DNA from: Prosopocoilus inquinatus
Taxonomy: Eukaryota; Arthropoda; Insecta; Coleoptera; Lucanidae
Length of the DNA: 64,000 nucleotides
Direction: 5' to 3'
NCBI GenBank assembly: GCA_036172665.1
Contig: CM069873.1
Span: forward strand, 33,036,001-33,100,000
The position numbers and the translations under genes are program-made. Position 1 is the stretch's first letter, and the number at the start of each line of letters is the position of its first letter. The notes below the pieces were generated by a model. The model saw only the letters and a program-made list of their open reading frames with translations. It made no database searches and was not told where the DNA came from. Positions 1,846-63,300 of this stretch are shown piece by piece.

Positions 1846-3276
1846 TTATTCAACCTCCTGTATCCTGTAATATGGCCTCAAATTCCTGGCGTTAAACACA
1901 CCTCGCGTATTGCCGTTTTCGGATTCCAACAGGTAGGCATTTACGTGTACTCTTCGTCGAACGACATATGGTCCCTCGTATAGATGACAGAATTTTTGAT
2001 TTACACGCTCCGCTAGAATCGAAATCGGATTTGTCCTAATTAATACCCAATCTCCCTCGTTGAATGGTGGTTGATATCTCGTTTGCTGTCGCCCCCGCCG
2101 TTGAGCCATGTTTCTCGTGTGACGCCTCACCTGATCCCGCATGTGTTCCACTTCTTGGTTCAAAACAAATGGGTTAATCCGACGAATTATTTCTCTGTAA
2201 GGCACTTCCGGTTCTTCTCCGAATGCAATCGTAACTGGCGCGAATCCTGTAGAGTCGTGTGGCAACGTCTGTAGCTTCTCGATGTGGTCAATCCAACCTG
2301 TATGTCGCCTTGAACAAAACGTCCTGAAAAACCGCCCAATTTCCCTCATAACTCGTTCTACTGGATTCGATGCTGGATGTCGTATGGAAGTATATTGCAC
2401 CTGAATCCCCGCTTCCGCCATCCTTTGTCTCCACCGTCTTGATGTAAACTGCGTCCCGTTGTCGCTGAGAATTCGTTCCGGCTTGATCCTAGATTCCTCT
2501 AAAATTTTTCGCGCGGCGATGTTCGCGTTTGCCCTTCTCATTGCATATAATTGGACAAATTTTGAGAACACGTCGATCGTCACAAACAAATAAACCGCCC
2601 CGAAGCGCGCGCGTGGCAATGGCCCGTAGAAATCCACTGACATCAATTCACCCACTCGATCAGCGATTATCGGCTGAAATTGCCCGGCAAAATTCCTGTT
2701 TAAATGCTTGGTCCGCTGACAGCTGTCGCAACTTCGAAGAATTTTCCTGATTGACTGTCGCATTTTCTTCCAAAAGAACAATGAGCGCATCGCGTGGAAT
2801 ACTTTTCCAGCTCCAAAGTGCCCATATGCCTCGTGGAAATGTCGGACTAAATCAACGATCAGACTCCTTGGCACCGCCACTAACTTCGACTGTGTAAATC
2901 GGCAATTGTACAGCAGAACCCCGTCATGCAACTCGTATCCGGTTTGCCTTTCCTCGTCGTCTTGTGTGTAGATTGTCCCGAGATAAGGGTCCTCGCTCTG
3001 TAGCTCCCCGATATGTATTAACCTTCTCCGTAAACCTGGGCTGTCGGTGATCGTCAAAGTTGCAATTATCGGTGCCGGATGTCCTTGCACCCCTGCAGTT
3101 GATGAACCCGCTGGGAATCGAGACAGCGTATCCGCGACGATGTTCTCTCTTCCCTTGATGTGATGTACTTCGAAATCAAACGCTTGTAACATCAGCACCC
3201 ACCTGGTTAACCGTTCACTTAACAACCTGCACTGTTTCAGAAACTGTAAAGCATGATGATCACTATAAATAATCAC
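1846..3276 (-). CDS. pol: Gypsy-1 pol, 3' part: end of RNase H and integrase
   Basis: About 475 residues. The first residues (IIYSDHHALQFL) finish the RNase H domain, with its last catalytic Asp. Integrase follows. The zinc-binding HHCC module lies around residues 165-215 (HEAYGHFGAGK, then CDSCQ). The DDE triad is visible as MSVDFYGPL, LSDNGTQF and NPVERVMRE. The C-terminal domain contains FNEGDWVLIRTN and ends with RPYYRIQEVE. It was one polyprotein with the ORF at 3837-5783; the break is the ribozyme-repeat insertion, and the flanking duplicated bases show where reading was continuous. The ORF start given here is not a natural start. Confidence 0.93.
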   Translation of the reverse strand: MIIYSDHHALQFLKQCRLLSERLTRWVLMLQAFDFEVHHIKGRENIVADTLSRFPAGSSTAGVQGHPAPIIATLTITDSPGLRRRLIHIGELQSEDPYLGTIYTQDDEERQTGYELHDGVLLYNCRFTQSKLVAVPRSLIVDLVRHFHEAYGHFGAGKVFHAMRSLFFWKKMRQSIRKILRSCDSCQRTKHLNRNFAGQFQPIIADRVGELMSVDFYGPLPRARFGAVYLFVTIDVFSKFVQLYAMRRANANIAARKILEESRIKPERILSDNGTQFTSRRWRQRMAEAGIQVQYTSIRHPASNPVERVMREIGRFFRTFCSRRHTGWIDHIEKLQTLPHDSTGFAPVTIAFGEEPEVPYREIIRRINPFVLNQEVEHMRDQVRRHTRNMAQRRGRQQTRYQPPFNEGDWVLIRTNPISILAERVNQKFCHLYEGPYVVRRRVHVNAYLLESENGNTRGVFNARNLRPYYRIQEVE

Positions 3277-3321
3277 TTTAGCAAAATTTTGTGCAAATCG
3301 TTTTTGATTGCAGTGAGAACC

Positions 3322-3386
3322 TCGAGCAGCCTCTGGACAGCTGTTTCAGCCCTGCTTGGGGCTTCTTCAGCAGAAACGTAGCTCGA
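3322..3386 (-). ncRNA. Type I hammerhead ribozyme, copy 1
   Basis: The minus strand carries CTGAAGA (C3-A9), a 5-bp stem II AGCCC/GGGCT with loop CAAGCA, then GAA, then the short palindromic stem III ACAGCTGT ending in the GTC cleavage triplet. Stem I starts right after the cleavage site (CAGAGGC pairing GTTTCTG) and extends past an internal loop into TCGAG/CTCGA. All core bases are consensus. Confidence 0.9.
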
Positions 3387-3633
3387 CATTCCCACTGCAG
3401 ACCAAAAACGACTTGCCCAATTTATTCGCAAATGCGATGTAAGAATGATGAACATATAAAATAGCGACATCTTACTATCGCTTTTTGACCTAACATTGCA
3501 GTAGGATAGACAAATTGAAGCGGGATTTGCTCCTAATGAGTCCCCCATGCAAGGCGGCCATGCTTGCTGTCAAAGCATAATGAAAGATTTTAGAAAAATT
3601 TTGTGCAAATCGTTTTTGATTGCAGTGAGAACC

Positions 3634-3698
3634 TCGAGCAGCCTCTGGACAGCTGTTTCAGCCCTGCTTGGGGCTTCTTCAGCAGAAACGTAGCTCGA
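3634..3698 (-). ncRNA. Type I hammerhead ribozyme, copy 2
   Basis: It is identical to the copy 312 bp to its left. The two are tandem in the same arm, so a transcript through both could release one full 312-nt unit by two self-cleavages. Confidence 0.9.
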
Positions 3699-3836
3699 CA
3701 TTCCCACTGCAGACCAAAAACGACTTGCCCAATTTATTCGCAAATGCATGGGGGACTCATTAGGAGCAAATCCCGCTTCAATTTGTCTATCCTACTGCAA
3801 TGTTAGGTCAAAAAGCGATAGTAAGATGTCGCTATT

Positions 3837-5783
3837 TTATATGTTAATCACTTTAGCGTTCACCAAATATGTGCGAAATTTCTGTAAGGAGAAAATGATT
3901 GCGAGTAATTCCTTTTCGGTCGTGGTGTAATTCATCTCAGCAGTATTCAACGATCGGCTGGCGAAGGCGATTACTCCTACTTCTCCCCCCTCCTTCTCTT
4001 GACATAGTGCACTACCTATACCGAACCCTGAACTATCCGTTTGTAGTATAAAAGGTTGATCGAACTTCGGGTGACACAACATTACACTTTGCAAGAATAA
4101 CTCCTTGAGGTACTGAAAACTAGCCTCTTCTTCGCTTCCCCACTTCCATTTGACTCCTGTCTTCAACAGCTGTCGTATTGGCAGTGTGTGTTCGCTGTAA
4201 TTCCGTTGGAACTGCCGATAATAGTTGCATAAGCCTAGGAAAGCTCGCAATTGTTTCACGCGTGTAGGCGTAGGGAACTTCTGAATCGCTTCTACCTTTT
4301 CTGGGTCCGGCCGTATCCCTTCTGTTGATAAGATGTGTCCTAGAAACTTAATCTCCTCCTGTATGAAACACGACTTCTCTAAATTCACAGTTAAATTGGC
4401 ATCTTGTAACTTCGTTAAAACTGCTCGCAAGTGTTCTAAATGCGTTATAAAATCCGGAGAGGCGATCAACAGATCATCCACGTAGTTCACGGCAAATTCC
4501 CTTACTTCCGGCCCTAAAACTAAGTCCATGCAACGGCTAAAACTAGCCACTGCTGTCTTCAATCCGAATGGCAGCACCTTAAACGTGTAACTTCGTCCAT
4601 TGTAGAGAAAAGCAGTGTATTTACGGCTGTTTTCATGTAGCGGAATCTGCCAGTAGGAAGAGCGTAAATCTAACGACGAAAAATACCTCACGTTATGGAA
4701 ACGGTGTATCAGTTCCTCGCTTGGTGCAGGGCTCTCTCTGTCTGCCACCATCCTCTCATTTAATTGTCTCGCATCCAAACAGAGTCGCACGGTCCCATCC
4801 TTTTTCTTAACTACAACAATCGGACTCGAATATGGAGACGCTTCACGCTGTATAATTTGTAAGTGTAACATTTTCTGAATTTCATCGTCTACCGCAGGTC
4901 TTAATGCAAAGGGTACCGGATATGATCTCTTCATAAATGGCGTCTCATTCTGCATTAAAATTTCATGCGTATACATGTGCGTTAGTCCGGGTATTTTAGC
5001 GAATACTTGATAGAATTCAACGAGCAATTCTTTCATGTGTTGCTTCTCAATCGCATGTATGTTGCACCCCTCGATTTTACCCTGTATAGACTCGACGCTT
5101 TCATAGTTTTCTTCGTCTCGTCGCAAAGCGAACTCTTCGACTACCTCTTCGTCCGACTCACCTGTGTCGCCGCATGTTTGACGCTTGTCCGCTGCTTCGA
5201 CTCGGGTTATTAGCTGCACTTGATATCGGTGTTTTTCCGCGGTAAATTCTAGGATGCCTTCCTCGAAATCAATCTTCGCCTGGTGTCGAGTCAGCCAATC
5301 CTCTCCGATGATAATCGGTTTAATTAATTTCTTAACAACTAAGCACGCCGTCTGTATTTCCGCTCCGCCAATATACATGGTGATAAAAGCTTGCAGTGTG
5401 ATCCTTATGCTTCGTTGACCTACGGCGCCTTTTAATTGCGTTGCTTTAACGGGTAACACCGGAATGTGTATTCCCTCTGAAAGGATCTGATAATAAACCT
5501 CCTCTGAAACACACGAAACTTCACTCCCCGAATCAACCAACGCTGAGGTCTCGATGCCTCCGTCGATCCGAATTGCAATTGCTGGGATCACTCGACGAGT
5601 CTCCTTCTCTCCGCCAAGAATAAATTGTTGTCCCCTCTGTAACGATAAAATTTGGAAACAACCTACGCCCCTAGTTTCTGTTGATTCTCCTGGACTAGAT
5701 AATTCCCTGTAGCGCAAACACTTCCGACTCGACTCGCCTGAAAAACCCAATCCCCGCAGATCTGTCTGTCCGACTGCCGCCAC
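3837..5783 (-). CDS. pol: Gypsy-1 pol, 5' part: protease, reverse transcriptase, RNase H
   Basis: 648 residues in the ORF; the last few come from the inserted repeat. An aspartic protease lies near residue 100 (ALVDSGSEVSCVSEEVYY, the D-S-G active site). Reverse transcriptase covers roughly residues 290-480, with VKKKDGTVRLCLDARQLN, FSSLDLRSSYWQIPL and the catalytic NYVDDLLIASP. Connection and RNase H follow (QTDSSGFGIGSALCQ, TTTEKELLAIIFSLQKF). The order protease-RT-RNase H-integrase is that of Ty3/Gypsy. The start is 185 bp beyond the gag stop and in another frame, so expression probably needs frameshifting or another bypass. The true translation start is uncertain. Confidence 0.94.
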   Translation of the reverse strand: MAAVGQTDLRGLGFSGESSRKCLRYRELSSPGESTETRGVGCFQILSLQRGQQFILGGEKETRRVIPAIAIRIDGGIETSALVDSGSEVSCVSEEVYYQILSEGIHIPVLPVKATQLKGAVGQRSIRITLQAFITMYIGGAEIQTACLVVKKLIKPIIIGEDWLTRHQAKIDFEEGILEFTAEKHRYQVQLITRVEAADKRQTCGDTGESDEEVVEEFALRRDEENYESVESIQGKIEGCNIHAIEKQHMKELLVEFYQVFAKIPGLTHMYTHEILMQNETPFMKRSYPVPFALRPAVDDEIQKMLHLQIIQREASPYSSPIVVVKKKDGTVRLCLDARQLNERMVADRESPAPSEELIHRFHNVRYFSSLDLRSSYWQIPLHENSRKYTAFLYNGRSYTFKVLPFGLKTAVASFSRCMDLVLGPEVREFAVNYVDDLLIASPDFITHLEHLRAVLTKLQDANLTVNLEKSCFIQEEIKFLGHILSTEGIRPDPEKVEAIQKFPTPTRVKQLRAFLGLCNYYRQFQRNYSEHTLPIRQLLKTGVKWKWGSEEEASFQYLKELFLQSVMLCHPKFDQPFILQTDSSGFGIGSALCQEKEGGEVGVIAFASRSLNTAEMNYTTTEKELLAIIFSLQKFRTYLVNAKVINI

Positions 5784-5968
5784 TGGAGATACTCTTCCTT
5801 GGTGATATTTTCCTAATCCCTGGAATGGTTTCCATCCTAGCTTGGTGAGTAATTCGAATCCCTTATTGACTCTTATTGACTCATTTTCCTCTGAGCGCCC
5901 TAAATGGTTAACTTCTACATATGTGGACCTTCTCGCGTCGTCCTCGGCACAGCTATCGGTCCTTAGCC

Positions 5969-7087
5969 CTACCGATTCCAGTTTTCCTGGTCGATTTCCT
6001 CCTCTTCATAGCGTGAATATGACAGATTGGCCTGGTTTCCCCTGCCTCGATACCTTCTCTCATGCTTCGCTGGTCCACCTGACGAGCCTAGCTGTTCGAG
6101 CAAGTTATCCTGGCCCCTCAAGAACTCGGCTGCTTCTTGGATTGTACTCCTGCCTCCCATCTGCCACAGAGATTGCAACGTATGCGGAAAATGACGCATT
6201 AAATCCTTGACCAAAACCGTCTCCGCACGTTGTGTTGTCAGCAGTCTTGCCTGATTCACGTAATAGGAGAAATGTTCGAGCATGGTGTATATCCCTCGTG
6301 GTTCCCAACGTGCACTGATTATTTCTCTGAGGACCTCCAGTTGTTTTTGCTCGGACCAGTATGTCTTCAGAAAATCGGTTCTGAAGTCGGCGTAACTCTG
6401 CCATTTTCCCTTGTAGATTTGGCTCCAGTAGTAAGCCGACCCCATCATGCTCTCCTCGGCGGTGATTAATTTTTCTTCTTCAGGGATACCTAGCCTCCTA
6501 AACCACGATTCTAAATGGTGCAAAAACTTATAGGGATCAGAAGACGACTCCCCTCTAAAAACCGGCCTTTTCATCGTTAATTGTAGTAGCAACCTGGAAT
6601 TTTCACCCGAAATCGCGCTTGGCCCTGGCTTGTCCGAAACGGTTTCGCTTATATCCGCCCTACAGCTTGCATATATATCTCCTACCTGGTTCGACGTGCT
6701 GCTCCCCGAGACGGCCGATACATCTGCCCTGGAGATGCTATCCGACGACGATGGCGTTCTCTCTGGCTGTCGCTCCCTGACGATGCCCTGCAGTGCTGAT
6801 AGGATCCCGGTCATCATCTCTTGCTGTTGTCCCGACCAAACAGCAAACCATCGAGGAACCTCCTCCTGCTTATCCGCGATACCCTCGGTAGGCTGCGTAG
6901 TTACCGACGTCGCGACGCTCGCTTCAGACGCTTCGGTTACGGCGACACTACGCGACTCCGCGGCGCTCTCGCTCTCTATCCCGACCGTTCCCGCGACGGC
7001 ACGCGAGCTGTCCGTCATCCTGTATTTCTGTTTTCCGCGACCCGACATTCCTTCCTCTCTCAAAATATTAAAACGACCGCTTTTCAA
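5969..7087 (-). CDS. gag: Gypsy-1 Gag
   Basis: 372 residues, intact. The first half is low complexity and Ser/Glu-rich. The capsid-like core is around residues 180-300 (SDPYKFLHHLESWFRRLGIP, then SAYYWSQIYKGKWQSYADF). The basic end contains RRYRGRGNQ. I see no CCHC zinc knuckle, so RNA binding probably relies on the basic Arg/Gly tail. The start lies 11 bases beyond the primer-binding site, an unusually short leader between them. The reading frame differs from that of pol. Confidence 0.88.
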   Translation of the reverse strand: MKSGRFNILREEGMSGRGKQKYRMTDSSRAVAGTVGIESESAAESRSVAVTEASEASVATSVTTQPTEGIADKQEEVPRWFAVWSGQQQEMMTGILSALQGIVRERQPERTPSSSDSISRADVSAVSGSSTSNQVGDIYASCRADISETVSDKPGPSAISGENSRLLLQLTMKRPVFRGESSSDPYKFLHHLESWFRRLGIPEEEKLITAEESMMGSAYYWSQIYKGKWQSYADFRTDFLKTYWSEQKQLEVLREIISARWEPRGIYTMLEHFSYYVNQARLLTTQRAETVLVKDLMRHFPHTLQSLWQMGGRSTIQEAAEFLRGQDNLLEQLGSSGGPAKHERRYRGRGNQANLSYSRYEEEEIDQENWNR

Positions 7088-14459: not shown

Positions 14460-15859
14460 GGCCCGATTTTTCAAGTGATTGGTAAAGTGATAGTTACTTA
14501 CCACTGGGATAATTGAACCTCCTTGATAAAGTGCTTGTTAAACAAAATCTCCATTTTCAATTATAAATCAAATACCAAAGAAGTAGAGTCGTACAGTTAC
14601 TCGTACACATTTATGTATCCCCTCTACATGTTTATCGCTACCAAGCAAATTTACTGGCTGTTAGTTTACCTCCTTGTTAAAAGGAATTTATGTCATTGTT
14701 AAGACTACCAATACTTTGATAAACTCATTTTCTGAGCTAACAATCGAATAACACTAACAGTCACTTTACCAATCGATTGGTAAAGTGATGGTGACTTACC
14801 ACTGGGATAAGTCTTTGGTAACATGCTTGTTAAACAAAATCTCCATTTTTAATTATAAATCAAATACCACAGAAGTAGAGTCGTTGCACGTATCCATTTA
14901 TGTATCCCCTCTATATGTTTACCGCTACCAAGCAAATTTACTGGCTGTTAGTTTATCTCCTTGTTAAAAGGAATTTATGTCATTGTTAAGACTACCAATA
15001 CTTTGATAAACTCATTTTCTGAGCTAACAATCGAATAACACTAACAGTCACTTTACCAATCGATTGGTAAAGTGATGGTGACTTACCACTGGGATAAGTC
15101 TTTGGTAACATGCTTGTTAAACAAAATCTCCATTTTCAATTAAAAATCAAATACCACAGAAGTAGAGTCGTTGCATGTATCCATTTATGTATCCCCTCTA
15201 CCTACATGTTTACTGCTACCAAGCAAATTTACTGGCTGTTAGTTTACCTCCTTGTTAAAAGGAATTTATGTCATTGTTAAGACTACCAATACTTTGATAA
15301 ACTCATTTTCTGAGCTAACAATCGAATAACACTAACAGTCACTTTACCAATCGATTGGTAAAGTGATGGTGACTTACCACTGGGATAAGTCTTTGGTAAC
15401 ATGCTTGTTAAACAAAATCTCCATTTTCAATTATAAATCAAATACTACAGAAGTAGAGTCGTTGCTCGTACCCATTTATGTATCCCCTCTACATGTTTAC
15501 CGCTACCAAGCAAATTTACTGGCTGTTACCTCCTTGTTAAAAGGAATTTATGTCATTGTTAAGACTACCAATACTTTGATAAACTCATTTTCTGAGGTAG
15601 CAATCGGATAACACTAACAGTCACTTTACCAATCGATTGAAAAACCGGGCCTTTGATAAACTCATTTTCTGTGCCAACAATCGGGTAACACTTAGGTCCA
15701 ATTTTACAAATGGGGCTCAACTTTGAGCTGAGGTTTAAACCCTTAGCAACGATTATTTCAACAATTGTTGTGAAGGATTTAAGCTTCGGCTCAAAGTTAA
15801 ACCGTCATTGTAAAACTGGGCGTAATAGTCACTTTACCAATCGATTGAAAAACCGGGCC
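14460..15859. repeat. Tandem array of Harbinger-derived MITE units (four full plus a fifth partial)
   Basis: Units begin at gattggtaaagtgat near 14477, 14775, 15062 and 15353, spacings of about 298, 287 and 291 bp. Each unit joins the left end of the neighbouring Harbinger (TTACTTACCACTGGGATAA, TGCTTGTTAAACAAAATC) to its right end (TTTGATAAACTCATTTTCTG), so the unit is an internal-deletion derivative. Units share a merged inverted repeat at their junctions. The array abuts the parent element across a shared TAA. A fifth right-end fragment (15651-15859) is split by another MITE. Confidence 0.85.
15695..15822. mobile_element. Small foldback MITE nested in the Harbinger array
   Basis: 128 bp with inverted ends GGTCCAATTTTACAA and TTGTAAAACTGGGCG (imperfect) and a middle palindrome around TTAGCAACGATTATTT. 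It is flanked by TTA/TAA, a Harbinger-type 3-bp target. It interrupts the fifth MITE unit, so it is younger than the array. A related copy lies at 61129-61262. Confidence 0.7.
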
Positions 15860-21414: not shown

Positions 21415-21860
21415 TCAGTTCAAACTGCTGTTTCAGCCCTATTTGAGGTTTCATCAAAAGCGATTTACAACAAAATTTTTTAAAACTTTCATTATGCTTT
21501 GACAGCAAGGCTGGCTTCAATTGTCAATCCTAATGCAATGTTAGTATGTAAATTATTCATTATTATTACATCGCAATTGCGATTATCATTGGTCGAATCG
21601 TTTAGGTTTGCAGTGGAATTCTCGGTTTACAGAAGCGTAGCGAAGCGTGAAGATCCAAATAGGATTGAAACAGCTGAACAGAAGTTGGTCGAATGATTCA
21701 CTGCAATCAACAACGATTTACAACAATTTTTTTTTAAATCTTTATGCTTTGACAGCAAGCATGACCATTTTGTATAGGGTGTCTTATTATATAGCAAATT
21801 GACTTCAATTTGTCACTCCTGATGCAATGTTAGGTCTCAAAAAACAATCGATGTCGCTGT
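21415..21860. mobile_element. Old, decayed retrozyme insertion
   Basis: Diverged matches to the 312-bp repeat occur as an inverted pair: antisense about 21418-21470 and sense about 21580-21720, with the shared TTCATTATGCTTTGACAGCA block. Both hammerheads are broken. On the minus strand C3 is T (TTGATGA) and stem III is lost. On the plus strand C3 is G (GTGAAGA) and the cleavage triplet is gone. It keeps the inverted layout of the young insertions. Confidence 0.75.
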
Positions 21861-21880
21861 TTAAACTATTTATAATTTTA

Positions 21881-26789: not shown

Positions 26790-27185
26790 GAAGCTGCTCG
26801 AGGGATTCACTGCAATCAAAAACGATTTGCAACAAATTTTTTTAAAACTTTCATTATGCTCTGACAGTAAGCGTGGCCGTCTTGCGTAGGGTGACTTATT
26901 ATGTGCTTGCTTCCTGATAAGTCCCCCATGCAAGGCGGCCATGCTTGTTGTCAAAGCAAAAGGAAACTTTTAAAAATGTTGTTGCATTTCGTTCTTAATT
27001 GCAGTGAAAACCTCGAGTAGCCTCTGTACAGCTGTTTCAGCCCTCCTTGGGGCTTCGTCAGCAGAGACGTAGCTCGACTTTCCCACTGCAAACCAAAAAC
27101 GACTTGTCCAATTTATTCGCAAATGCGATGTAATTCGCTTCAATTTGTCTATCCTACTACAATGTCATATCGATCGTAGGAAGTC
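26790..27185. mobile_element. Diverged retrozyme insertion with one intact hammerhead
   Basis: A short sense piece (26790-26910: CTGCTCGAGGGATTCACTGC, then TTCATTATGCTCTGACAG) is joined to an antisense arm (26915-27185) in the usual inverted layout. It is diverged from the young copies throughout. I could not define its TSD. Its ribozyme (27013-27077) is still complete and differs at pairing positions in a structure-preserving way. Confidence 0.8.
27013..27077 (-). ncRNA. Type I hammerhead ribozyme, diverged copy
   Basis: The core is CTGACGA (N7 is C in place of A) with stem II AGCCC/GGGCT, loop CAAGGA, then GAA, stem III ACAGCTGT and cleavage triplet GTA in place of GTC. Stem I reads GTCTCTG against CAGAGGC, turning a G-U pair of the young copies into G-C. 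Changes fall in positions that tolerate any base or keep pairing. Confidence 0.85.
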
Positions 27186-28792: not shown

Positions 28793-28990
28793 TGTAAATA
28801 ATTTATGAACATATAAAATAGCGACATCTTACTATCGCTTTTTGACCTAACATTGCAGTAGGATAGACAAATTGAAGCGGGATTTGCTCCTAATGAGTCC
28901 CCCATGCAAGGCGGCCATGCTTGCTGTCAAAGCATAATGAAAGATTTTAGAAAAATTTTGTGCAAATCGTTTTTGATTGCAGTGAGAACC

Positions 28991-29055
28991 TCGAGCAGCC
29001 TCTGGACAGCTGTTTCAGCCCTGCTTGGGGCTTCTTCAGCAGAAACGTAGCTCGA
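28991..29055 (-). ncRNA. Type I hammerhead ribozyme, array left arm 1
   Basis: Complete core, same sequence as the copy at 3322-3386. First of three minus-strand ribozymes in the left arm. Confidence 0.9.
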
Positions 29056-29302
29056 CATTCCCACTGCAGACCAAAAACGACTTGCTCAATTTATTCGCAA
29101 ATGCGATGTAAGAATGATGAACATATAAAATAGCGACATCTTACTATCGCTTTTTGACCTAACATTGCAGTAGGATAGACAAATTGAAGCGGGATTTGCT
29201 CCTAATGAGTCCCCCATGCAAGGCGGCCATGCTTGCTGTCAAAGCATAATGAAAGATTTTAGAAAAATTTTGTGCAAATCGTTTTTGATTGCAGTGAGAA
29301 CC

Positions 29303-29367
29303 TCGAGCAGCCTCTGGACAGCTGTTTCAGCCCTGCTTGGGGCTTCTTCAGCAGAAACGTAGCTCGA
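29303..29367 (-). ncRNA. Type I hammerhead ribozyme, array left arm 2
   Basis: Complete core, 312 bp from its neighbours on both sides. Confidence 0.9.
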
Positions 29368-29614
29368 CATTCCCACTGCAGACCAAAAACGACTTGCTCA
29401 ATTTATTCGCAAATGCGATGTAAGAATGATGAACATATAAAATAGCGACATCTTACTATCGCTTTTTGACCTAACATTGCAGTAGGATAGACAAATTGAA
29501 GCGGGATTTGCTCCTAATGAGTCCCCCATGCAAGGCGGCCATGCTTGCTGTCAAAGCATAATGAAAGATTTTAGAAAAATTTTGTGCAAATCGTTTTTGA
29601 TTGCAGTGAGAACC

Positions 29615-29679
29615 TCGAGCAGCCTCTGGACAGCTGTTTCAGCCCTGCTTGGGGCTTCTTCAGCAGAAACGTAGCTCGA
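29615..29679 (-). ncRNA. Type I hammerhead ribozyme, array left arm 3
   Basis: Complete core. The next unit of this arm ends at the inversion (about 29890) before reaching its ribozyme. Confidence 0.9.
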
Positions 29680-29942
29680 CATTCCCACTGCAGACCAAAA
29701 ACGACTTGCTCAATTTATTCGCAAATGCGATGTAAGAATGATGAACATATAAAATAGCGACATCTTACTATCGCTTTTTGACCTAACATTGCAGTAGGAT
29801 AGACAAATTGAAGCGGGATTTGCTCCTAATGAGTCCCCCATGCAAGGCGGCCATGCTTGCTGTCAAAGCATAATGAAAGATTTTAGAAAATTTGCATTTG
29901 CGAATAAATTGAGCAAGTCGTTTTTGGTCTGCAGTGGGAATG

Positions 29943-30007
29943 TCGAGCTACGTTTCTGCTGAAGAAGCCCCAAGCAGGGCTGAAACAGCTGTCCAGAGGC
30001 TGCTCGA
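29943..30007 (+). ncRNA. Type I hammerhead ribozyme, array right arm 1 (reference copy)
   Basis: Position by position: C3-A9 = 29959-29965 (CTGAAGA). Stem II is 29966-29970 pairing 29977-29981. G12-A14 = 29982-29984. A15.1 and U16.1 are 29985 and 29992; C17 is 29993. Predicted cleavage lies between 29993 and 29994. Stem I pairs 29994-30000 with 29952-29958, then 30003-30007 with 29943-29947 beyond an internal loop CTAC/TG that could dock with loop II. Stem III is only 2-4 bp and palindromic, so activity may need a dimer. Confidence 0.92.
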
Positions 30008-30254
30008 GGTTCTCACTGCAATCAAAAACGATTTGCACAAAATTTTTCTAAAATCTTTCATTATGCTTTGACAGCAAGCATGGCCGCCTTGCATGGGGGA
30101 CTCATTAGGAGCAAATCCCGCTTCAATTTGTCTATCCTACTGCAATGTTAGGTCAAAAAGCGATAGTAAGATGTCGCTATTTTATATGTTCATCATTCTT
30201 ACATCGCATTTGCGAATAAATTGAGCAAGTCGTTTTTGGTCTGCAGTGGGAATG

Positions 30255-30319
30255 TCGAGCTACGTTTCTGCTGAAGAAGCCCCAAGCAGGGCTGAAACAG
30301 CTGTCCAGAGGCTGCTCGA
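30255..30319 (+). ncRNA. Type I hammerhead ribozyme, array right arm 2
   Basis: Complete core, exact copy of the reference one unit earlier. Confidence 0.9.
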
Positions 30320-30566
30320 GGTTCTCACTGCAATCAAAAACGATTTGCACAAAATTTTTCTAAAATCTTTCATTATGCTTTGACAGCAAGCATGGCCGCC
30401 TTGCATGGGGGACTCATTAGGAGCAAATCCCGCTTCAATTTGTCTATCCTACTGCAATGTTAGGTCAAAAAGCGATAGTAAGATGTCGCTATTTTATATG
30501 TTCATCATTCTTACATCGCATTTGCGAATAAATTGAGCAAGTCGTTTTTGGTCTGCAGTGGGAATG

Positions 30567-30631
30567 TCGAGCTACGTTTCTGCTGAAGAAGCCCCAAGCA
30601 GGGCTGAAACAGCTGTCCAGAGGCTGCTCGA
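30567..30631 (+). ncRNA. Type I hammerhead ribozyme, array right arm 3
   Basis: Complete core, exact copy. Confidence 0.9.
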
Positions 30632-30878
30632 GGTTCTCACTGCAATCAAAAACGATTTGCACAAAATTTTTCTAAAATCTTTCATTATGCTTTGACAGCA
30701 AGCATGGCCGCCTTGCATGGGGGACTCATTAGGAGCAAATCCCGCTTCAATTTGTCTATCCTACTGCAATGTTAGGTCAAAAAGCGATAGTAAGATGTCG
30801 CTATTTTATATGTTCATCATTCTTACATCGCATTTGCGAATAAATTGAGCAAGTCGTTTTTGGTCTGCAGTGGGAATG

Positions 30879-30943
30879 TCGAGCTACGTTTCTGCTGAAG
30901 AAGCCCCAAGCAGGGCTGAAACAGCTGTCCAGAGGCTGCTCGA
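30879..30943 (+). ncRNA. Type I hammerhead ribozyme, array right arm 4
   Basis: Complete core, exact copy. The unit that follows differs by one base at about 31138 (TTATATCG for TTACATCG). Confidence 0.9.
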
Positions 30944-31190
30944 GGTTCTCACTGCAATCAAAAACGATTTGCACAAAATTTTTCTAAAATCTTTCATTAT
31001 GCTTTGACAGCAAGCATGGCCGCCTTGCATGGGGGACTCATTAGGAGCAAATCCCGCTTCAATTTGTCTATCCTACTGCAATGTTAGGTCAAAAAGCGAT
31101 AGTAAGATGTCGCTATTTTATATGTTCATCATTCTTATATCGCATTTGCGAATAAATTGAGCAAGTCGTTTTTGGTCTGCAGTGGGAATG

Positions 31191-31255
31191 TCGAGCTACG
31201 TTTCTGCTGAAGAAGCCCCAAGCAGGGCTGAAACAGCTGTCCAGAGGCTGCTCGA
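31191..31255 (+). ncRNA. Type I hammerhead ribozyme, array right arm 5
   Basis: Complete core, last of the array. The insertion ends 41 bases downstream. Confidence 0.9.
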
Positions 31256-31389
31256 GGTTCTCACTGCAATCAAAAACGATTTGCACAAAAAATTTTTGTA
31301 AATAATTTAGTTCAAGACACGCTTTTTGCCAGGTTCTGTGGAAGCTATTACGTATTGAGGTTCGCTAATAACTGTTGATTTAATGTTTT

Positions 31390-37608: not shown

Positions 37609-37664
37609 GTTTTATTCTTTTTAGAAAAATTTTGTGCAAATCGTTTTTGATTGCAGTGAGAACC

Positions 37665-37729
37665 TCGAGCAGCCTCTGGACAGCTGTTTCAGCCCTGCTT
37701 GGGGCTTCTTCAGCAGAAACGTAGCTCGA
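37665..37729 (-). ncRNA. Type I hammerhead ribozyme, insertion 3 left arm 1
   Basis: Complete core, exact copy of the reference sequence. Confidence 0.9.
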
Positions 37730-37976
37730 CATTCCCACTGCAGACCAAAAACGACTTGCCCAATTTATTCGCAAATGCGATGTAAGAATGATGAACATAT
37801 AAAATAGCGACATCTTACTATCGCTTATTGACCTAACATTGCAGTAGGATAGACAAATTGAAGCGGGATTTGCTCCTAATGAGTCCCCCATGCAAGGCGG
37901 CCATGCTTGCTGTCAAAGCATAATGAAAGGTTTTAGAAAAATTTTGTGCAAATCGTTTTTGATTGCAGTGAGAACC

Positions 37977-38041
37977 TCGAGCAGCCTCTGGACAGCTGTT
38001 TCAGCCCTGCTTGGGGCTTCTTCAGCAGAAACGTAGCTCGA
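37977..38041 (-). ncRNA. Type I hammerhead ribozyme, insertion 3 left arm 2
   Basis: Complete core, 312 bp from the previous one; the arm ends about 23 bases further on. Confidence 0.9.
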
Positions 38042-38064
38042 CATTCCCACTGCAGACCAAAAAC

Positions 38065-38113
38065 GTTTCTGCTGAAGAAGCCCCAAGCAGGGCTGAAACA
38101 GCTGTCCAGAGGC
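38065..38113 (+). ncRNA. Type I hammerhead ribozyme, insertion 3 right arm 1 (short stem I)
   Basis: Core, stems II and III and the first 7 bp of stem I are present. The distal TCGAG/CTCGA helix and the internal loop are lost at the junction and deletion, so docking with loop II should be lost. Confidence 0.8.
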
Positions 38114-38267
38114 TGCATTAGGAGCAAATCCCGCTTCAATTTGTCTATCCTACTGCAATGTTAGGTCAAAAAGCGATAGTAAGATGTCGCTATTTTATAT
38201 GTTCATCATTCTTACATCGCATTTGCGAATAAATTGGGCAAGTCGGTTTTGGTCTGCAGTGGGAATG

Positions 38268-38332
38268 TCGAGCTACGTTTCTGCTGAAGAAGCCCCAAGC
38301 AGGGCTGAAACAGCTGTCCAGAGGCTGCTCGA
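38268..38332 (+). ncRNA. Type I hammerhead ribozyme, insertion 3 right arm 2
   Basis: Complete core, exact copy. Confidence 0.9.
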
Positions 38333-38528
38333 GGTTCTCACTGCAATCAAAAACGATTTGCACAAAATTTTTCTAAAACCTTTCATTATGCTTTGACAGC
38401 AAGCATGGCCGCCTTGCATGGGGGACTCATTAGGAGCAAATCCCGCTTCAATTTGTCTATCCTACTGCAATGTTAGGTCAAAAAGCGATAGTAAGATGTC
38501 GCTATTTTATATGTTCGTTTTATTCTTT

Positions 38529-54764: not shown

Positions 54765-56036
54765 ACAGGGTGTTCATGGTGATCCGCTACAATAGCTAAC
54801 TTTCTTATTTGTATTTTTATGAAGTAACTTAAATTAGAAATGTTTTAGGACCTTTCCTCCTCGTTTTTATGGTACTTTCGGAAAAACAAATGACAATCAA
54901 GTTTTCGAGATTTTCAATTGTTTTCAAGTTTTTTTAACAGAATGTTAGGTTTTTATCATCGCATCGCGTTCAGGATGTCAAATTAATTATGTCTCTAAAA
55001 TATCATCTCCCAAAGCCTACTAACTTTTTTATTTGAAGTTTCACGAAATAGCCTAAATTAAAAAAGTTTCAGGATCTTCCGTGCTCAATTTTATGGTACC
55101 CTTGGAGAAACAAATGATTTTCGAGATTTTCAATTGTTCTCAACTTTTTTAAATGGAACATTATATTTTTTATCAGCATATCGTGTTCAGGATGTCAAAT
55201 TAAGTACTTTTCTAAAATATTCCCCTCCTAAGTCTACTATTTTATAAATTATTTGGTACATAATGGTATTAGATATTTTAACATTTCGATTTCAATATTT
55301 GACACAAGGATTTTTAGTTTGAACTAAATTTAAACAAATTTTGAATCATGACAGTTCACAAAGGTCTGACAGTTTGAACACATTACCTTTATTCTCTTGT
55401 TTCGAAGCACACCATATTGTATTTGTGAATAAAAAGACTATCATAACGATACACTTCTTCCCGCGAATATCAAGACTAAATTATTTATGAAATATTCTGT
55501 TTTGAGAGATATTATTTCACAGACATACTTAATTTGACATCCTGAATGTGATGCCATGATAAAAAACATAATGTTCCATTTAAAAAAGTTGAAAACAATT
55601 GAGAATCTCCAAAACCTGATAGTCATTTGTTCTTCCAAAGGTACCATAAAATGCAGCAGGGAAGGTCCTGAAACTTTTCTAATTGAAGCTACTTCGTGAA
55701 ACTTCAAATAAAAAAGTTAGCTATTGTAGCCATTTCCCGTGAACACCAAGATTTTGTAACTAAATCATTTATAAAAGTAGTAGGCTTTGGAAGATGATAT
55801 TTTAGAGACATAATTAATTTGATATCCTAAACGCGATACAATGATAAAAGCCCTAACATTCCATTTAAAAAAGTTCAAAACAATTGAAAATCTCGAAAAC
55901 CTGATTGTCATTTGTTTTTTTGGAAGTACCATAAAATCGAAGAGGAAAGGTCCTAAAACTTTCCTAATTTAAGTTACTTCATAATAATACAAATAAGAAA
56001 GTTAGTTATTGTAGCGGCTTCCCATGAACACCTGTA
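54765..56036. mobile_element. Inner foldback element inserted in the left arm of the outer one
   Basis: Begins ACAGGGTGTTCATGGTGATC and ends CTTCCCATGAACACCTGTA. The arms are about 600 bp. Each is made of two related units of about 300 bp, with GATTTTCAATTGTT, GGATGTCAAATTAA and GGTACC-like steps repeated. So each arm was duplicated before the present palindrome was fixed, or the element grew by repeated self-insertion. Confidence 0.82.
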
Positions 56037-61424: not shown

Positions 61425-63300
61425 ATGTATTTGCTAACTTTTTTTGTAATTATGTTAGATGATGAGCTGAGCGATTCATGCCATAATACATCTCTATCTG
61501 GAGGCGAAGAACAGCCGACGAGAATATTCCGTACACGAAAACGTAAATATGAAGAAACCATTCACATTGCCATGAACAGAAAGAAATTGATACAAGCGTG
61601 TGTAGAACTAATTACAGTCAATGGACGACCATTTACATTAATAGAAGACAGTGGATTTCGGCAAATAATAGACCCAATTATTAAGAGTTTGAATGAATCA
61701 CATCCAAATTTTAATGTGGATCGCCAAAGCATAACGCAGGAAATCCATTCACAAGCCAATAATCTAAGAAGAGATATAATGCGTGATTTAGAAAATCGAT
61801 TAGTGTCCATCAAAACTGACAAGGCCACATGCATGAAATGCTCCGTTATGGAAATAAACGCTCAGTACATTATTGACGGGAAATTAATTATTCGGAATTT
61901 ATGCGTCAAAGAAATACCTGCTGAACATTCAGAAATAGATTTGGAAGACGAAATTATTTCAGAATTACAAAAATTTGACGTTGATATTAAACAATTGTAT
62001 AGTATCACTGTGGATAGTGATGTAAATTTGATGAAAACCATAAATTTACTCGAAGTTAGTTCTTCACGTGTGGAAAATAATTCGTGTTTGCAAACAAGTT
62101 GTGACGATGAGAATAGTTTGCCTTGGTTGAAAGTCGAAGAGGAATATAAGTGGACAGAATCGGCCTTTGAAAATGTTCATGCTAAGTTTAAAGAATATGG
62201 GGTATTTGGACAACGTTGTGCCGCGTATACTCTGCAGTTGGCGGTTAAAGATTTTCTCTCTAGGGATAACACTATGAATTTACTAGACTCGTTCTCTCTG
62301 CAAAGCACTAAGAATGCCACCAATTTTAAGTCTTCTAACACAAAAGAACAAGAAGAAACCAGTAATCGATTGTCCAACACGCTGGCACTCGTCGTTAGAT
62401 ATGATTGAAAGCCTTCTGTCTTTACGAGATATATGCGATAATGTTTTGGTGCACGAGGAACAAATAGATGAAATACAAAATCTAACAAATGAACAGTGGC
62501 TTGATCTTCAAGAACTCGCAAAAACGCTTACTCCCAGTGAGATTGCAATGAAAGGTTTACAAAGTGAACAACTCTTAATCGGCGATTTTTTGCAAGTTTG
62601 GCTTCGTTGTAAATTGGAGACCGATGCTATTGGCACAACATTGGCAAAAACATTAGTAGAATTTATGGAAAGTAATGAAAAGGAACTTTTTGAATGTCCA
62701 ACCATTACCTGCGCGCTATATTTGGATCCAAGATGGCACATTATGCTTTCATTTAAACAGCAAGCTGCCGCTGAAAATTATTTAGTAGATTTATGGTACC
62801 GTTTGGAAAATTTGCAAAATTACGATAATAAAACCGCGGTTAATATCCACTTTGATGAAACTAGAGCAGTAACATCTAAAGACTTTTGCAATGAAAGTTC
62901 TATGAATGACGCATCGCAGGAAGCTGTTGATCCTCTCGAACAGTTGCTGCAGCAAAGAGAAAAAGCCATTGCTTTGGCCAGTTTGTTACCAACCAAAGAA
63001 GACGTTCGAGAACTAATCCGGAATTTTAAAAAATCTCCTAGAATACCGAGATCTGAAGATATTCTCCAATATTGGCAACAGAGAAGCAATAGAAATCCTG
63101 AGCTTTACGCACTATCGTCTGTTGTCCTAGCAGTTCCCGCCACTCAAGTTAGTGCCGAACGAATGTTTTCACATTTGCGGTACATTCCACAATATTTAAG
63201 CAGTGATTTAACAAGTGACTTAATATCTGATATATTATTTTTGAGAAGCAATTACATTTTAGCAAACAAAAATAAAACTTCAGAGTCTTTATTACAGTAG
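61425..63300 (+). pseudogene. hAT transposase (ZBED4-like), one frameshift
   Basis: Two overlapping frames, 61425-62408 and 62314-63300, about 600 residues once joined by a one-base shift near 62310-62390. The first holds LIEDSGFRQIIDPIIKSLN, LYSITVDSDVNLMKTINLL (catalytic Asp region) and FGQRCAAYTLQLAVKDFL (C-x2-H-like region with C, then H replaced). The second holds VIDCPTRWHSSLDMIESLL (the TRW motif) and the hAT C-terminal dimerisation domain (AVPATQVSAERMFSHLRYIP). No BED finger is seen at the N-terminus. A GTAAGT...TTATGTTAG pair at 61417-61459 could be a very short intron from a missing exon. Terminal repeats were not found. Confidence 0.87.

Follow-up and report, generated by a model that had tools for sequence, protein, structure and literature searches.

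The insertions of a hammerhead retrozyme in Prosopocoilus inquinatus suggest copying by the machinery of a Penelope-like element

How does a short non-coding repeat that carries a ribozyme come to lie in a genome as two head-to-head arrays? The question is raised by a locus at positions 28793–31309 of a 64,000-nucleotide stretch of the Prosopocoilus inquinatus genome (GenBank assembly GCA_036172665.1, contig CM069873.1, positions 33,036,001 to 33,100,000), called the window below. The locus is a single insertion, in which a 1.1-kb antisense arm is followed, after 3 bp of filler, by a 1.4-kb sense arm, with the same 13 bp on either side. The unit has a period of 312 bp (99–100% matches, GC content 0.43) and each full unit contains one type I hammerhead, giving three on the minus strand (28806–29890) and five on the plus strand (29894–31296). 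A first-pass annotation, made from the letters alone, had described a tandem repeat; the period stands, but the repeat is not one array but two, placed head-to-head. The head-to-head order, the duplicated target sites and the connection with a Penelope-like element go beyond that annotation. The 312-bp repeat appears to be an animal retrozyme of the kind that lacks long terminal repeats (non-LTR). Judging by the shape of its insertions, it may be copied with the machinery of a Penelope-type retrotransposon in the same genome.

All parts of a hammerhead are present at 29943–30007 on the plus strand, and every part that the annotation had named there was found again. Stem I has an outer helix TCGAG/CTCGA, an internal loop CTAC/TG and an inner helix GTTTCTG/CAGAGGC; the core and stem II read CTGAAGA, AGCCC/GGGCT and GAA; stem III is the palindrome ACAGCTGT, followed by C17, with the cut predicted between 29993 and 29994. 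A strict descriptor (at least 7 pairs in stem I, 5 in stem II and 2 in stem III) gives 15 copies in the window and eight at 28806–31296, the same counts as had been reported, and gives none in 300 shuffled windows or 20,000 shuffled units. One of the 15 (27061, minus strand) has a GTA triplet and is part of an older repeat copy. A looser descriptor adds one unrelated match, at 63053, and finds seven matches across the 300 shuffled windows. A simple GTC hammerhead pattern occurs 14 times in the window against 0.02 expected. No strict hammerhead is contained in the window's remaining tandem repeats, which have periods of 287 and 285 bp (14477–15639 and 55513–56032) and of 55 bp. The exact hammerhead pattern gave no match in viral contigs, a collection from which records of this genome may be left out. 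The longest ATG frame in the tandem array is 48 amino acids, in keeping with the non-coding nature that had been proposed.

The annotation had also named an Rfam type I covariance model as a check, and here the outcome is divided. A scan of the whole window called nothing at gathering level, and in a 3.1-kb stretch the sole hammerhead match listed was HH9 (14.5 bits, E 8.7). Hammerhead_1 aligns over its full length with a 101-nt piece at 23.8 bits (E 4e-4); its curated gathering score is 34, so the match is sub-threshold. An older copy scores 22.3 bits (E 0.0022) with the same model. The stem II pair adjoining the core is A-U in the unit; the usual hammerhead pair at this place is G10.1-C11.1. 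Positions 10.1 and 11.1 are called conserved, with compensatory changes in cave crickets (PMC2837043; here and below, published sources are cited for excerpts of their text).

The family was traced through the 650-Mb genome (173 contigs). The best 40 of 276 first-look candidates for young copies are 99–100% like the unit over 148 nt, and these scored places are spread over ten contigs. Two older pieces gave 1737 and 3692 first-look candidates (40 scored each); in the second of these searches six neighbouring pairs of opposite-strand matches were seen, all head-to-head. The majority sequence of older copies was made from 12 sources, two of which (L072 and L073) appear to be duplicates of a single copy. 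Compared with the young unit, it is changed at none of the 39 paired or core positions of the hammerhead, at four of its eight free positions (position 7, two in loop II and H17) and at 23 of the 245 positions outside it. Individual old copies diverge alike inside and outside the hammerhead (99/702 and 499/3565 cells). In a large older subfamily (L079:1700-1840, L082–L120) the majority hammerhead of 39 further copies is likewise complete, with CTGATGA, the loop CAAATA and a GTA triplet; these 39 are the best matches to L079 and hence biased towards it. In stem I the young unit also has U-G where the 39-copy majority has C-G. The pattern is the one expected from selection on active source copies and neutral decay afterwards, and we infer a working ribozyme that bears an evolutionary mark of constraint in its source lineage.

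Insertion anatomy was compared in 28 independent insertions. These comprise 25 collapsed from the 40 scored places (L001–L030 and L061–L068, several of which share one array; L012/L021 and L061/L062 were counted once each), one neighbour lying within L024, and the two further insertions of the window, at 3.3 and 37.6 kb; a tiny fragment in L068 (3506–3537) was left uncounted. Outer ends were taken as the limits of exact 11-mer chains, with the short arm of L023 (~11 nt) read by eye. L064 and L061 are made of several segments, and L001 has ~360 bp of other DNA between its arms. Two arms are present in 26/28 insertions, the antisense arm outermost on the left and the sense arm outermost on the right. 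In all 26, one outer end lies at unit position 48–61 (site A) and the other at 194–203 (site B). Neither A/A nor B/B pairs occur and genomic orientation varies; under free and even choice of site the chance of 26 mixed pairs in 26 is ~1.5e-8.

The insertions are made up of unit arms between target duplications, which reach at least 12 bp in 21/28 (lengths 12–14 bp) and at least 10 bp in 23/28. When the flanks of different insertions are compared with each other, at least 10 bp is found in only 11 of 756 pairs. The insertion at 3.3 kb interrupts the pol reading frame of a Ty3-like retrotransposon (window 1846–7087, named by eye), a 140-bp stretch of which matches 27 places in the genome, most at 98–99%. 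Among the 26 paralogues found, the eight examined are all without the insertion; the 13-mer stands once in seven of them and as a one-base variant in one. The target duplications and the empty sites show that the family is mobile, as the first-pass annotation had supposed. An identical retrozyme insertion, near flanks included, is found at L012 and L021, which lie ~9 Mb from each other on one contig; another repeat has probably carried it.

The inner junctions were analysed in 22 of the 26 two-arm insertions (L001, L023, L061 and L064 left out). They show a 1–5 bp overlap in 15 cases, 1–12 nt of filler in six and a blunt join in one. Inner ends are scattered over the unit (Kolmogorov-Smirnov p 0.22), with 2/44 within 5 nt of the cut where 1.6 are expected. 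The inner ends of paired arms are 12–150 positions apart, with 0/22 within 6 and none symmetric, and the pair of inner ends is unique to each insertion. Arm length ranges from 34 to 1580 bp; 28/44 arms exceed one unit, and 66 exact 24-mers span the cut site. The scattered inner junctions and the arms beyond one unit imply that each insertion was a new synthesis from a template that did not end at the cut site, so the template would be a circle or uncut multimeric RNA.

A Penelope-like element resident in this genome shares the features that set these insertions apart. A GIY-YIG search gave 2232 candidates, of which 150 were scored; among these matches, unfiltered, 47 of 48 neighbours less than 10 kb apart are head-to-head, one is in tandem and none is tail-to-tail. 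Thirty GIY-YIG loci were examined, 25 of which belong to one Penelope-like family, that of L058, and five fall outside it (L032, L033, L035, L036 and L041). L069 has an intact frame of 785 amino acids with RVT_1 and GIY-YIG domains, in tandem units of 2604 bp. The 246 bp between its stop and the next start codon (L069 3091–3336) hold a minimal hammerhead, which by manual stem parse has CTGAAGA, a 6-bp stem II, the palindrome ATACGTAT and a predicted cut before CGCT; Rfam listed no hammerhead match for it up to E 10. Copies of the element end at two places 38 nt apart, directly upstream of the start codon, and the predicted cut lies 48 and 86 nt before these ends. A short end is paired with a long end in 9/9 resolved pairs with both ends in view (L040, L043, L051, L052, L053, L055, L058, L060 and L069), and target duplications of 11–14 bp are found in 9/10. 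In L031 one end is not resolved, and the ends in L042 are internal tandem joints (a locus covered by L069). The 38-nt interval, which is predicted to form a hairpin, matches the known Penelope tail in size and place. Among 120 relatives listed for the protein five species are named, all of them arthropods, and no solved structure is related to it in sequence at E 0.01.

The retrozyme and the Penelope-like element have in common head-to-head arms, a different fixed end on each side and duplications of similar length. Local alignment found no common start-site or binding sequence in the two, and the parallel is structural only. In the predicted fold of the retrozyme circle, sites A and B stand out as open, ranking 16th and 14th among 312 windows along the circle. 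Both belong to one multiloop, on either side of a domain at 70–184, and the stretch 58–202 is more stable than its shuffled versions (z -2.6). The predicted tail hairpin of the Penelope-like RNA likewise has a start site on each side. The Penelope-like protein of a lizard, once purified, was found to cut both DNA strands and extend them, to start internally at two sites and to prefer A+T-rich DNA (PMC11167929).

We consider it likely that the repeat is a non-autonomous retrozyme whose RNA, probably circular, is reverse-transcribed from both cut strands by Penelope-like machinery, with a start site of its own for each strand. Transcribed arrays would be cut by the hammerhead into 312-nt RNAs, which would then be closed into circles. 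The Penelope-like protein (reverse transcriptase and GIY-YIG nuclease), probably a dimer as modelled for the lizard relative, would cut both strands of A+T-rich DNA 12–13 bp apart. Each cut strand would prime reverse transcription at its own fixed place on the RNA, ~48–61 (site A) or ~194–203 (site B). The two cDNAs would run for 0.1 to 5 units, stop anywhere and join, mostly through 1–5 bp of microhomology, to give a head-to-head pair of arrays between target duplications of 12–14 bp. Cleavage, circles and the action in trans of the resident element's protein are what we infer; the arrays, duplications, empty sites, fixed ends, scattered junctions and conserved hammerhead, and the like geometry of the Penelope-like element, are observed.

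Several observations weigh against this account. The isolated hammerhead, folded freely by a model that omits core contacts, favours an alternative pairing by ~10 kcal/mol, and the contrast between 0/39 and 23/245 changed positions is weak by itself (Fisher p 0.053); the concentration of change at free positions is a stronger sign of constraint than that contrast. Two insertions (L022 and L063) consist of just one arm, whose outer end lies at site B, and no clear duplication is seen in L026, L061 and L066, while those of L007 and L008 lie within simple repeats. The retrozyme shows no significant likeness to the Penelope-like region between open reading frames (69/1000 shuffles score as high) or to the part after the Penelope-like cut (103/1000). 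The A+T content of the duplications is 0.88 for the retrozyme (20 of the 21 of at least 12 bp, L068 left out) and 0.72 for the Penelope-like element. The distance between A and B in the fold graph is unexceptional, 66/312 equally spaced pairs being as close or closer, and the fold of an older copy (one copy) has site A open and site B not. The Penelope-like tail hairpin does not exceed shuffled sequences in stability (z -0.5). Arms of this kind would also be left by uncleaved multimeric RNA. Hammerhead mutants of the lizard element, PAc of Anolis, had no effect on insertion in vitro, and its start sites were not seen to differ between the strands, unlike the A/B pairing of the retrozyme (PMC11167929).

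The alternative pairing joins core bases C3-G5 with the stem III palindrome, at unit positions 277–308 (window 29958–29989), in both subfamilies. As a guess from the folding model, it could mask the ribozyme in the circle, or it could make the ribozyme dependent on a dimer through the palindromic stem III; it might also protect the circle.

Other origins of the insertions were weighed on the same evidence. Twin priming by a long interspersed nuclear element (LINE) also yields inverted structures with target duplications; on this view the likeness to the Penelope-like element, with which the retrozyme shares no linking sequence motif, would be coincidental. Twin priming is known to fix one end only, whereas both outer ends are fixed in 26/26 two-arm insertions and the resident Penelope-like element has the same paired fixed ends; mobilisation by a LINE is unlikely. 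Long inverted arms and target duplications also occur in foldback elements, and a foldback-type DNA transposon or miniature inverted-repeat transposable element could have carried the hammerhead as a passenger. The two outer ends differ in sequence, however, and are not terminal inverted repeats, while the inner-end pairs, all different in 22 insertions, and arms of 34–1580 bp point to fresh synthesis each time; we regard such a transposon as very improbable. Ordinary satellite DNA, amplified and inverted by recombination, would account for tandem 312-bp units that are 99–100% alike. It is contradicted by the precise target duplications and the empty sites, by dispersal over ten contigs at the 40 scored places and by the fixed ends, and has hardly any claim left.

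A remaining alternative concerns only how the second arm is made. Head-to-head arms could arise by self-priming, in which a hairpin folds back, and not from both target strands. This was proposed, on an antisense template, for the inverted Penelope copies of bdelloids, with palindromes at the junction (PMC3846280), and one Penelope-like locus here (L058) has a symmetric centre. The inner ends of the retrozyme are 12–150 positions apart, with no pair within 6, and one would not expect a second arm made by self-priming to start at another fixed site, adjoining a target duplication of its own. Self-priming is improbable, a little more so than the LINE, and priming from both cut strands by Penelope-like machinery is preferred.

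Animal non-LTR retrozymes are already described, with insects among their hosts (Cervera and de la Pena 2020, PMC7229834). The present repeat resembles them in its type I hammerhead, its low-GC tandem repeat of about 300 bp and its apparent lack of LTRs, and the unit (312 bp, GC 0.43) falls within the tandem repeats of ~150–450 bp and GC below 50% by which metazoan retrozymes are recognised. Their target duplications, when present, exceed 4 bp, as here, and the length of the unit lies within the 170–400 nt of their circular RNAs (PMC7229834). A word search of the excerpted text of PMC7229834 gave neither "inverted" nor "head-to-head", and Penelope-like elements are named there as a strong candidate only. 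Unlike in the published retrozymes, as far as these excerpts go, the arrays here are head-to-head and have two different fixed ends that match those of a resident Penelope-like element. Literature listings, limited to open-licence papers, gave no account of retrozymes with head-to-head arrays or with fixed ends in pairs. The retrozyme family is known; the mode of insertion is the new part.

Penelope elements are known to occur in head-to-head copies that carry a tail on one side (PMC3846280). Penelope-like elements (PMC3846280; PAc of Anolis, PMC11167929) share with the retrozyme the head-to-head arrangement, a short tail at one inverted end, target duplications, an internal start of reverse transcription at two sites and a minimal hammerhead. 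The retrozyme is non-coding, without a reverse transcriptase and GIY-YIG frame of its own, and its start sites are ~140 nt apart against 38 in the Penelope-like element. Rotifer Penelope examples have duplications of 8, 9 and 10 bp, and some have none (PMC3846280), compared with 12–14 bp in the retrozyme.

Two other hammerhead repeats are comparable. The cave-cricket satellite pDo500 is an insect satellite with a hammerhead in which stem II positions 10.1/11.1 vary too; "inverted", "Penelope", "target site" and "retro" were not found by word search in the excerpted text (PMC2837043). The W-elements of Schistosoma mansoni are satellite-like, and some have type I hammerheads; duplicated flanks in one case were read as a possible target duplication. 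Word search of the excerpts on W-elements found neither "head-to-head" nor "retrozyme", and they give no start sites or partner element (PMC8490949).

According to a 2020 review, animal retrozyme repeats have no conserved motif from which an autonomous partner could be deduced (PMC7761336). Unlike sequence motifs, the insertions themselves carry the signature of a partner, which leads to a candidate enzyme within this genome and to two exact RNA regions; trans-mobilisation of a ribozyme-bearing RNA thereby becomes testable in vitro. A wider proposal is held tentatively, and we think it somewhat more likely wrong than right: Penelope-type retrotransposition may be two-sided in general, a dimer copying RNA from both cut strands with its subunits starting on either side of a stem-loop domain, and animal retrozymes may owe their spread to a circular RNA that presents the same pair of sites. 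If true, the two-sided reaction would explain the long-known head-to-head Penelope copies and their tail at one end, of which the present insertions offer a possible account.

The features of the focal insertion and the other copies of the family in the window are collected in Table 1.

Table 1. Retrozyme features in the window, with the focal insertion first
Feature	Position	Strand
Left target-site duplication TGTAAATAATTTA, 13 bp	28793..28805	.
Left arm, ~3.5 antisense units; outer end at unit position ~199-200 (site B)	28806..29890	-
Hammerhead copy; predicted cut between 29005 and 29004	28991..29055	-
Hammerhead copy	29303..29367	-
Hammerhead copy	29615..29679	-
3-bp filler, inner junction of arms	29891..29893	.
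Right arm, ~4.5 sense units; outer end site A (exact to position 49, then small indel)	29894..31296	+
Hammerhead copy named in the first-pass annotation; predicted cut 29993/29994	29943..30007	+
Hammerhead copy	30255..30319	+
Hammerhead copy	30567..30631	+
Hammerhead copy	30879..30943	+
Hammerhead copy	31191..31255	+
Right target-site duplication, 13 bp	31297..31309	.
Left target-site duplication TAATCACTTTAGC of second insertion	3270..3282	.
Second insertion: minus arm 3283-3747, plus arm 3745-3844, 3-bp overlap; outer ends A (left), B (right)	3283..3844	
Right target-site duplication of second insertion	3845..3857	.
Left target-site duplication GTTTTATTCTTT of third insertion	37609..37620	.
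Third insertion: minus arm to 38065, plus arm from 38063; outer ends A (left), B (right)	37621..38516	
Right target-site duplication of third insertion	38517..38528	.
Older copy, best stretch ~88% like unit; one complete GTA hammerhead, minus strand, CTGA at 27061	26790..27165	
Oldest copy, ~72% like unit; hammerhead decayed	21427..21862	

In the third insertion the sense arm (38063–38516) skips from unit position 10 to 110, which may record a template jump.

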